Below are positions 24,736 through 28,061 of a stretch of 64,000 bases of DNA, piece by piece (the stretch's first letter is position 1; the number at the start of each line of letters is the position of its first letter). The translations under genes and the position numbers were made by a program. The DNA is taken from the NCBI GenBank assembly GCA_029254375.1, contig JAQWXR010000045.1, positions 1 to 64,000 of the forward strand, read 5' to 3'. The notes beneath the pieces are model-generated. The model was not told the origin of the DNA and did not search any database. It saw nothing but the letters and a program-made list of their open reading frames with translations. This stretch comes from Schleiferiaceae bacterium. Its GTDB lineage: Bacteria > Bacteroidota > Bacteroidia > Flavobacteriales > Schleiferiaceae.

Positions 24736-25655
24736 ACTGGCTGGAGTGCGTTGCCAATGTATCGGAGGGTCGGCGACACGAGGTTATTTCTGTGCTCCAA
24801 AGGGCCATTCAGAGCATTCCTGACGCCCTTTTGCTCCATGCAGATTCAAGCTATGATGCGCATCGCACTGTGTTCACTTTTGTGGGACCTGAAGATGCTG
24901 TCGTGAACGCGGTATTGCACCTTGCTCGGGCTTGTCATGAGCATATTGATATGCGGCAACACAGCGGATATCATCCACGCATTGGCGCGCTCGATGTCTG
25001 TCCAATTATTGCCCTTTCGCCTGAAGCAGAGAATTCAGCAGAACATGCCGTGCGACGAATCGCCACAGGACTGGCTGAGGGCGGCATGGGAGGATGGTTT
25101 TACGCACTTAGTGCGCAGCGGGAGCAGTATCGCGATTTGGCGGAGGTTCGGCGCGGTGAATATGAGGGACTGCCTGCCCGCGCGACAAGCTTTGACTTTG
25201 GCGGATTTGATCCACGCTTCGGGGCGATCGCTCTGGGAAAACGGCCTTTTTTGATCGCCTACAACATCAATGTGAAAAGTCGAGATCTCGGACTTGTTCG
25301 CGAGGTCGCTCGACGGATTCGTCAAAAAACTCCTGGCGGCCTGCCCGGTGTCAAGGCCATTGGCTGGGATAGCCCAGTATTTTCATGTAGCCAAGTGAGC
25401 TGTAATATTGTGAACTTGAATGAATGCAGCCTAAAGCAACTTTTTGACCGAGTTCAACGTGAGGTGCATACGCTCGGCTCTTCTTTGAAGGGCTCTGAAT
25501 TGATTGGCTTAGCACCTATTTACGCCTTTCGCGATTTTGACCGCATTGAGGATGCTGTAAACTATCTCGGGCTGGACAGGGTTAAATCATTTAGAATTTC
25601 AGAACGAATTTTAGAATATCGACTACCTAATGCACCGTTAGATAAAGAAGTATGA
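24732..25655 (+). CDS. ftcD: glutamate formimidoyltransferase
   Basis: Transfers the formimino group of formiminoglutamate to tetrahydrofolate, the folate-linked alternative to HutG. The 307-residue protein covers only the two formiminotransferase subdomains (CVANVSEGRRHEVI at the start, HIDMRQHSGYHPRIGALDVCP, and YNINVKSRDLGLVREVARRIR). The cyclodeaminase half of vertebrate FTCD is absent, as in many bacteria. The start ATG 24732 overlaps the hutG stop. It also overlaps the following SDR gene (ATGA). Confidence 0.93.
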   Translation: MNWLECVANVSEGRRHEVISVLQRAIQSIPDALLLHADSSYDAHRTVFTFVGPEDAVVNAVLHLARACHEHIDMRQHSGYHPRIGALDVCPIIALSPEAENSAEHAVRRIATGLAEGGMGGWFYALSAQREQYRDLAEVRRGEYEGLPARATSFDFGGFDPRFGAIALGKRPFLIAYNINVKSRDLGLVREVARRIRQKTPGGLPGVKAIGWDSPVFSCSQVSCNIVNLNECSLKQLFDRVQREVHTLGSSLKGSELIGLAPIYAFRDFDRIEDAVNYLGLDRVKSFRISERILEYRLPNAPLDKEV

Positions 25656-26353
25656 ATTTAGAAAATAAACGCATCCTCATTACGGGTGCCTCTTCGGGCT
25701 TGGGCAAAGCAATGGCCAAGGCACTCATTTCCAAAGGGGCCCGAGTTCTCATTACAGGACGCGACGCTGAAAAAGTGCAGCATGTTGCCAATGAGTTAGG
25801 CTGCTGGGGTTTGGCTTCCTCTATTGCTTCTGAGGAGGCCGTTCATGAGCTATTTGCTGCCATGGATCTGACTTGGGGTGGCATCGACATCCTCATTAAC
25901 AATGCGGGCATAGGCTACTTTCATCCCGTTGAAGAGGTGCAATGGGCGCACTTGGAGGAGATCTTTCATACCAACGTATTTGGCGCGGCTATGGCGGGCC
26001 GTGAAGCGGCCATACGCATGAAGGCGCAATCTTCAGGGCACATAATCAATGTCGCTTCCACTGCGGGATCTCGAGGCTTCAAGAATGGAACGGTCTACGC
26101 TGCTTCCAAATTTGCACTCAAAGGCATGACCCAATGTTGGATGCATGAATTGCGGCCACATAATATTCGCGTCACGCTTCTTAGCCCTTCGGCGGTACCA
26201 ACGGCATTCAACGTTGAAAACCGCGAAGAAAAAGGCTTAAAAGACGGCTTACTAAGCCCGAAGGAATTGGCGCATGCGGTAGTTTCTGTCCTCGAAATGG
26301 ATAGTCGTGGATTTATACCAGAACTTGAAGTTTGGGCTACTAATCCTTTTTAA
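25652..26353 (+). CDS. short-chain dehydrogenase/reductase
   Basis: NAD(P)-dependent SDR of 233 residues: cofactor motif TGASSGLGKAM near the N terminus, NNAG, catalytic Ser in NVASTAGSRGF and YxxxK in VYAASKFALKG. The closest overall look is classical 3-ketoacyl-ACP-reductase-like SDRs, but the substrate cannot be assigned. The ATG overlaps the ftcD stop, so it is the last gene of the hut operon. A link to histidine breakdown is only positional. It ends 1 bp before the convergent alkane-monooxygenase-like gene. Confidence 0.85.
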   Translation: MNLENKRILITGASSGLGKAMAKALISKGARVLITGRDAEKVQHVANELGCWGLASSIASEEAVHELFAAMDLTWGGIDILINNAGIGYFHPVEEVQWAHLEEIFHTNVFGAAMAGREAAIRMKAQSSGHIINVASTAGSRGFKNGTVYAASKFALKGMTQCWMHELRPHNIRVTLLSPSAVPTAFNVENREEKGLKDGLLSPKELAHAVVSVLEMDSRGFIPELEVWATNPF

Positions 26354-26354
26354 A

Positions 26355-27350
26355 TCAATTATTTGGTATCCTATGGTTCATTACTTTGAACCATAAAAAT
26401 GGAAGCAAGGTCAAGACCATCATTGCTGGATAACCCGCAGGCATCTGAGGCGCATGGTCATGGTTCAATAGAATCGGATACTTTTTATGGGGTGAGGCAT
26501 GATGATCACTATGGCGTGTCAGCTCAAAGAGCATAAATCGCCCAAGTGGATGATTCGAATTCCAAGAGTGAATGGGCGTCGTCGTTTCATAACGCAGATC
26601 AGATTCCTTTTTTCGTTGCAATCCATAATGCTCGATATAATTGACCGTCTCAAGGAGCAGAAAACCAAGCACTGAAGCCAGGATCCAGGGCCCTGCCGCC
26701 ATGGGTTCGATCCATAATATGGTCAAAAAAAGCGCCACTTCCCACATGCACAATCGTCCCATCAGCGCTCGATCAATCCGCCACGCCGAACGCCACGCAC
26801 CCCATACGGATCTCATCCAAAAGGCATAGATGCTTTCATTCTTTCGGGCCGAGGAGGGATCTTCCGGTGTCGCCACGTGCTTGTGGTGCCCCCAGTTGTG
26901 ATCAATAAAAAACTGAGCATATAAGGTGGTCACTAAGAGCATCTGAGCTAAGGTCTGGTAGTGTTTTTGGGGGCGATGGCCCAGTTCATGAGCTACATTA
27001 ATAGCCAAAGCGCCAGAAGACACACCATAGGCAGTAATATGCCCTGCCAATGAGAGATAATCTCCTCTTGCGATATCCTCTGGGGAAACCCATATCAAAA
27101 GGACGAGCGCATACAGTTGCGCAGGCAAGGCAAGGAGAAGTAAAAGGTCAAACCAAGCCGACTGCTCTCGCTTGCTTCTCAGCTGCACTGGTGGGTTTTG
27201 CACCATGGGAGGGAGAATAATCTCAAGTAGCGGGACGAACCCAAAGGCATAAGCCAAGGCTATGAATGCTGCCCATCCTTCCGAGTACATTGAGACACAG
27301 ACCGATAATGTCAAAGAAAAGGCAAGAAGATAGCGTAGGTGAGCAAACAT
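26355..27350 (-). CDS. AlkB-like integral-membrane di-iron monooxygenase
   Basis: Membrane hydroxylase of the alkane 1-monooxygenase family, 331 residues with about six hydrophobic segments. All histidine boxes for the di-iron site are present: HELGHR, HNWGHHKHVATPEDP, NYIEHYG and LTRHSDHH. AlkB enzymes hydroxylate the terminal carbon of alkanes or fatty chains with electrons from rubredoxin; none is encoded nearby. It is 9 bp behind a CrtA-like gene on the same strand, so the two are probably one operon. The substrate could be an alkane, a fatty acid or a carotenoid end; the sequence does not decide. Confidence 0.88.
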   Translation of the reverse strand: MFAHLRYLLAFSLTLSVCVSMYSEGWAAFIALAYAFGFVPLLEIILPPMVQNPPVQLRSKREQSAWFDLLLLLALPAQLYALVLLIWVSPEDIARGDYLSLAGHITAYGVSSGALAINVAHELGHRPQKHYQTLAQMLLVTTLYAQFFIDHNWGHHKHVATPEDPSSARKNESIYAFWMRSVWGAWRSAWRIDRALMGRLCMWEVALFLTILWIEPMAAGPWILASVLGFLLLETVNYIEHYGLQRKKESDLRYETTTPIHSWNSNHPLGRFMLFELTRHSDHHASPHKKYPILLNHDHAPQMPAGYPAMMVLTLLPFLWFKVMNHRIPNN

Positions 27351-27359
27351 ATTGAACGT

Positions 27360-28061
27360 TTATTTCTTGAAGTTAGGCAAACTGCCTATGAAATTCAGGA
27401 TTTCCATTCGCACAAACATTTCTTCGCTGTACCAGTCATATTTCCTCGTTTTTTTGACCATTGGGGCGTGTTGTCGACTTCGATAGGCAAATTCATCGAG
27501 ATGCTCCGCACTTTCCCAGACTGAAAGCGTGGCTTGCTCAATAAGCGGGTACTCTCCTACTCCTTTGGCATAGCGGACGCCGGGCTGTTCGGCAATCCGT
27601 CGAGACGCAGATGGGACATTCCACCAAAAACGGAGTGCTTGACGGCGACGTATGCTCGCGCGCGTGAGGACCGCCAGGGGTCCTTTCCATTCAGAATTAG
27701 TCTCGGGAAAGGCAAAGGGCTCTTGTCCATTCCATGTGCCATGTCCTTTGCGGGGTCGCGCATCCCATCCATAGACTCCGTTAGCATAGCCTCGTAGATC
27801 AATAAAAATCGCGTTTGAATTCCAGAAATCATCGGATTGTTCTTTACTCTCCCAGACGGTAAACCACGCATAGGTCCCCCAATCGGGCCAGATAGAAAAT
27901 CCTTGCCCCGCGCCACTTCCAAGCATCTTACCAAAGCAAAGTCCGGGCGCCTCGATCCCCTGCCGAAGACTAATGCCCATGGCACCAAAGGCCCTCCAGC
28001 GAGCTCTAAAGCCCGTGAATGTCATGAATCGTACAGAGATGTGTCGGCCTTTGGGCTTCAT
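27360..28061 (-). CDS. spheroidene-monooxygenase (CrtA)-like protein
   Basis: The 233-residue protein follows the CrtA pattern along its length. It starts with RWRAFGAMGISLRQGIEAPG and FGKMLGSGAGQGFSIWPDWG. It continues through LAVLTRASIRRRQALRFWWN and RYAKGVGEYPLIEQATLSVW, and ends with the YDWYSEEMFVRMEIL region. CrtA proteins are heme oxygenases that add keto or hydroxy groups at C-2 of acyclic carotenoids. No other carotenoid gene is in the window. The operon partner is an AlkB-like hydroxylase. I am confident of the family, less of the substrate. Confidence 0.8.
   Translation of the reverse strand: MKPKGRHISVRFMTFTGFRARWRAFGAMGISLRQGIEAPGLCFGKMLGSGAGQGFSIWPDWGTYAWFTVWESKEQSDDFWNSNAIFIDLRGYANGVYGWDARPRKGHGTWNGQEPFAFPETNSEWKGPLAVLTRASIRRRQALRFWWNVPSASRRIAEQPGVRYAKGVGEYPLIEQATLSVWESAEHLDEFAYRSRQHAPMVKKTRKYDWYSEEMFVRMEILNFIGSLPNFKK

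Follow-up and report, generated by a model that had tools for sequence, protein, structure and literature searches.

A crtA-like gene and an alkB-like gene lie 9 bp apart on the minus strand of a Schleiferiaceae genome, an arrangement that recurs in related genomes of the family. The reading favoured here, with a probability of roughly 0.6, is that the CrtA-like enzyme is a carotenoid 2'-hydroxylase of a myxol-type pathway, that the AlkB-like enzyme is an ordinary, rubredoxin-less hydroxylase of alkyl chains, and that local rearrangement made their genes neighbours. Both enzymes belong to known kinds; what is lineage-specific is their pairing, which is local to a single group of aquatic bacteria with small genomes.

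A conserved pair of genes

The window (the whole stretch of 64,000 nucleotides that was analysed, from contig JAQWXR010000045.1) contains the following features at the locus.

27360-28061, minus strand: crtA-like gene, 233 aa
27468-27470, minus strand: codon of CrtA His198, candidate haem ligand
27351-27359, minus strand: 9-bp gap between the crtA stop and the alkB start
26355-27350, minus strand: alkB-like gene, 331 aa, integral membrane di-iron monooxygenase of the AlkB family
26976-26990, minus strand: AlkB His box 1, HELGH (H121, H125), invariant in 26 sequences
26883-26900, minus strand: AlkB His box 2, HNWGHH (H151, H155, H156), its histidines invariant
26628-26630, minus strand: AlkB H241, in the motif NYIEHYG, invariant
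26499-26513, minus strand: AlkB His box 3, HSDHH (H280, H283, H284), invariant
25652-26353, plus strand: SDR gene, convergent to alkB, behind hutI-, hutG- and FTCD-like genes

The open reading frame coordinates bear out the positions and spacing given in the initial annotation, with crtA preceding alkB. A divergent hsp90 (htpG) gene flanks the pair on the side away from the SDR gene. Among 22 sampled genomes of the genus, 14 carry crtA and alkB adjacent, in the same order, on the same strand and beside hsp90; in nine of these the stop of the first gene and the start of the second overlap by 4 bp (ATGA), and in the other five the gap is 9-24 bp. Two genomes from a second genus of this family (g9) have the pair too; there the genes are 64-66 bp apart and a fabH-type gene lies upstream. 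Since the genes adjoin in 14 genomes of one genus and two of another, the pairing is not a matter of chance, and the possibility raised at the outset, that they are neighbours in no relative, does not hold. The spacing and the overlap suggest that crtA and alkB are probably co-transcribed.

The arrangement can also come apart. Five genus members have crtA at the same place and no alkB match in the genome, while in one g9 genome (G045) alkB occupies that place and both crtA and cruF are missing; within the genus, alkB occurs only in genomes that have crtA. From the pairs in both genera and the losses of a single gene, it therefore follows that the operon arrangement is real, old within the family and breakable from both sides.

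Two further observations concern the flanking genes. The SDR neighbour is also gone in the genus members without alkB (L009-L013, compared with L004-L008), and the SDR gene and alkB seem to have been gained or lost as a block. The order fabH-crtA-alkB of g9 (L048, L049) has a partial counterpart in G031 (L060), where a fabH-type gene likewise lies upstream of crtA and no alkB match is found.

The AlkB-like protein and its electron supply

The alkB-like gene product matches the Pfam family FA_desaturase (PF00487, E 3.5e-23) and, in a phmmer search, the solved alkane 1-monooxygenases over nearly their full length (8f6t, E 5.1e-62; 8sbb, E 9.5e-57). Superposition of its AF2 model on 8f6t gives a TM score of 0.90 and an rmsd of 2.4, at 34% identity. 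All nine histidines of the di-iron site are present, as had been claimed for the His boxes, and are conserved in 26 of 26 aligned sequences, so that the protein has both the AlkB-type membrane fold, as predicted, and the nine histidines that membership of this family requires. These features are shared with the AlkB of Fontimonas thermophila (8f6t/8sbb), from which the window protein differs in lacking a loop of about 14 residues and in coming from a genome and family devoid of rubredoxin. The loop (columns 207-220 of alignment A1), which might conceivably bear on donor docking, is missing in the AlkBs of the genus and present in most relatives as well as in the solved AlkBs. In the tree, a long branch (0.78) leads to a single clade holding the AlkBs of the genus, and the paired g9 AlkBs lie in a separate clade nearby. 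The plasmid collection held only distant AlkBs, the best being 46% identical, in Persicobacter.

The lack of a rubredoxin gene, first remarked on for the neighbourhood, extends to the whole genome (88.5% complete), in which no match to PF00301 was found, and to all sampled genomes of the family, including 69 that carry alkB. The same model does find matches among the controls (7 of 14) and in eight other relatives, and a rubredoxin gene overlooked through genome incompleteness is thus unlikely, given its absence family-wide. A search for rubredoxin-like motifs around 80 alkB loci gave a single match, whose context is not rubredoxin-like.

The genome thus lacks the AlkG (rubredoxin) partner expected of an AlkB-type alkane monooxygenase, which weakens the case for a canonical AlkBGT system and leaves the identity of AlkB itself intact, because the same situation is found in Dokdonia. 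This member of the Bacteroidetes possesses AlkB without AlkG or AlkT, and was shown by a stable-isotope experiment to assimilate hexadecane (PMC10654063); rubredoxin-less alkane assimilation in Bacteroidetes is therefore already known. The two cases have in common a Bacteroidetes AlkB in a genome without AlkG and AlkT, and they differ in that the crtA partner is described only for the window, while Schleiferiaceae alkB has been reported from metagenomes only. Those metagenomes come from Arctic lakes, where the gene was taken as a marker of hydrocarbon degradation (PMC10176705).

The electron supply also bears on the question of what the two enzymes may have in common. CrtA enzymes require O2 and reduced ferredoxin (PMC10604819), and the donor of AlkB is perhaps a ferredoxin able to serve CrtA too. 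The operon could accordingly reflect a common requirement instead of a common substrate, whereby two O2-dependent monooxygenases would draw on the same ferredoxin supply or respond to the same signal, such as light or oxygen. The tight coupling of the genes and the absence of any rubredoxin available to AlkB agree with this, although inspection of the neighbourhood revealed no ferredoxin or reductase gene adjoining the operon, and the proposal is rather unlikely.

The CrtA-like protein and the carotenoid pathway

Residues 8-227 of the crtA-like gene product match the NCBIfam model of spheroidene monooxygenase (NF045923) with E 2.3e-49 and 168 bits. The homology to the CrtA family is full-length, yet the score lies below the equivalog cut-off of 300 bits set for the Rhodobacter enzyme, and the protein is for this reason considered a member of the family and not an equivalog of Rhodobacter CrtA. 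It aligns (alignment A2) with the CrtA proteins encoded in cruF-crtD clusters, and is 35% identical over 215 residues to that of the crtY-cruF-crtD cluster of genome G123. Because this identity is only 35%, a shifted product is possible. A sequence search against solved structures gave no significant relative.

The predicted structure of the protein (AF2 model, pLDDT 92.8) finds its best matches among the aldoxime dehydratases, which are haem enzymes (Z 14.4, 223 residues aligned, rmsd 3.9; 9.3 for the next other protein). By this measure, the predicted fold is nearer to the haem aldoxime dehydratases than to other dimeric alpha-beta-barrel monooxygenases, which score at most 9.3. Such a fold, as modelled, agrees with the five-coordinate haem of CrtA (PMC10604819), a common fold alone being no proof of function. 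His198, invariant in 26 sequences, is a candidate for the haem ligand.

The initial annotation noted that no carotenoid synthesis gene is present nearby. This is correct for the neighbourhood and misleading as a guide to the organism, since a gene set found on other contigs dispels the notion of a genome without a carotenoid pathway. Contig 31 carries crtI and crtB together with an idi-like gene, contig 44 carries crtYcd-crtZ, and cruF and crtD are found on contigs 18 and 4, respectively. The scores exceed the respective cut-offs for CrtD (608 bits against 500), CrtI (702 against 640), CrtYcd (89 against 39) and CruF (72 against 25); CrtZ is without a family match, yet shares 47% identity with the CrtZ-like protein encoded in the cluster of G123. 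Judged by sequence, these genes make up a myxol pathway set, and the genome has what a CrtA-OH enzyme would need, namely cruF, crtD and a cyclase to provide a 1'-hydroxy-3',4'-didehydro psi end.

The flavobacterial CrtA-OH of the myxol pathway hydroxylates C-2 of the psi end, and in Nonlabens spongiae it was shown to form deoxymyxol from 1'-hydroxytorulene once CrtY, CruF and CrtD have acted (PMC11855829). The gene order crtA-crtY-cruF-crtD-crtZ-crtB in G123 reproduces the Nonlabens cluster, and G101 likewise has crtA inside a crtY-cruF-crtD cluster of Nonlabens-like order. Among 149 relatives, crtA is accompanied by cruF in 47 of the 51 genomes that have it (kinship uncorrected), as would be expected if CrtA works on the product of CruF. 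With the CrtA-OH of Flavobacterium P99-3 and Nonlabens spongiae (PMC11855829), the window enzyme thus shares its protein family and the companions crtI, crtB, crtD, cruF, crtZ and a lycopene cyclase. In contrast to these, its gene is paired with alkB at a great distance from the rest of the carotenoid set, and the cyclase belongs to the CrtYcd type.

Taken together, homology, the pathway in its own genome and the co-occurrence with cruF argue strongly that the protein is a carotenoid C-2 oxygenase, so that there is good support for the earlier suggestion of a CrtA-like enzyme acting on the end group of a carotenoid; the protein is most likely a carotenoid 2'-hydroxylase of the CrtA-OH type. 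A hydroxyl product is likely, rather than a keto product. The enzyme could instead be a ketolase forming a 2-oxo product, as in purple bacteria, for it shares its family with spheroidene monooxygenase, and ketolation by CrtA consists of two successive hydroxylations by the same type of enzyme (PMC10604819). This is unlikely, the score of 168 bits being well under the equivalog cut-off and the characterised flavobacterial members being hydroxylases (PMC11855829).

Distribution of the two genes

A literature search for both enzyme names together found no paper, in agreement with the earlier remark that no described pathway pairs the two families. The suggestion of successive action by both enzymes on a single hydrophobic substrate fared less well. 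A joint AlkB-CrtA pathway would require co-occurrence and adjacency beyond one lineage, and 395 Bacteroidia genomes, drawn evenly across the class, show no such pattern. In this sample crtA is present in 38 genomes and alkB in 153; both are present in 17, against about 14.7 expected, and by coordinates they adjoin only in the genome of the window.

A similar picture emerges from the named genome collection. Among its 80 alkB loci, crtA adjoins only the four closest, which are MAGs titled Cryomorphaceae, Schleiferiaceae and Flavobacteriales, including BACL7 and UBA972. Other alkB loci have unrelated neighbours, such as a glutamyl-tRNA-synthetase-like gene in about 20 of the 80. Crt genes of another kind accompany alkB in a Flavobacteriales genome (UBA6165; L168:6001-9026), where alkB and genes like crtI and crtZ follow one another on the same strand; the crtA pairs aside, this is the sole locus of the 80 with carotenoid genes adjoining alkB.

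Within the family, the association of alkB with crtA is not significant (Fisher p 0.12), and that with cruF is a weak tie (p 0.02, kinship uncorrected). Several near-complete genomes of the family possess alkB and neither crtA nor cruF. A dependence of AlkB on the carotenoid pathway was rejected, as alkB occurs without a cruF match in 16 genomes, of which several are 99% complete or better. In g15 genomes, alkB lies about 8-15 kb from crtA; this was not taken as one cluster with a functional link, the intervening genes being unrelated.

Because alkB is so loosely tied to crtA and cruF, and because precedents exist in the rubredoxin-less Dokdonia and in the alkB of Schleiferiaceae, the most likely role of AlkB is that of a stand-alone hydroxylase of alkyl chains that does without rubredoxin and uses another electron donor. 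The opposing idea is that AlkB was recruited in the genus to tailor the carotenoid oxidised by CrtA, for instance through hydroxylation of a methyl on its end group, so that a xanthophyll not yet described would result. An operon with ATGA overlaps in nine genomes, a tight and repeatedly kept coupling, could mean joint function, and the restriction of alkB within the genus to crtA genomes, the single long-branched clade with its lost loop and the alkB beside crtI and crtZ at L168 point the same way. Against it stand the five genus members with crtA and no alkB, the g9 genome with alkB at the same place and neither crtA nor cruF, the lack of association or adjacency across the class and the fact that the solved AlkB structures are alkane monooxygenases, which together make the recruitment of AlkB to a carotenoid very doubtful.

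Proposed roles and their meaning

Under the favoured reading, of a carotenoid 2'-hydroxylase beside an ordinary alkyl-chain hydroxylase, CruF would hydrate a monocyclic carotenoid of the myxol type at its open (psi) end and CrtD would then desaturate that end, after which CrtA would hydroxylate its C-2 at the haem, using O2 and reduced ferredoxin. CrtYcd and CrtZ would form the hydroxylated ring at the opposite end of the carotenoid. AlkB would use its membrane di-iron site, and a donor other than rubredoxin, to hydroxylate alkyl chains, those of biogenic alkanes or the like, at their terminal carbons. The two genes would have been brought together by local rearrangement within the small-genome Schleiferiaceae lineage.

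The pair ties a step of the myxol-type carotenoid pathway to AlkB in aquatic Bacteroidota. Should AlkB after all prove to have been recruited to carotenoid tailoring, the result would be a new xanthophyll and the first carotenoid oxygenase of the AlkB family. A metagenome survey counts these Bacteroidota as abundant hydrocarbon degraders on the basis of alkB (PMC10176705), and a sampled family without rubredoxin raises the questions of whether alkB marks hydrocarbon use in these bacteria and which donor feeds their AlkB.
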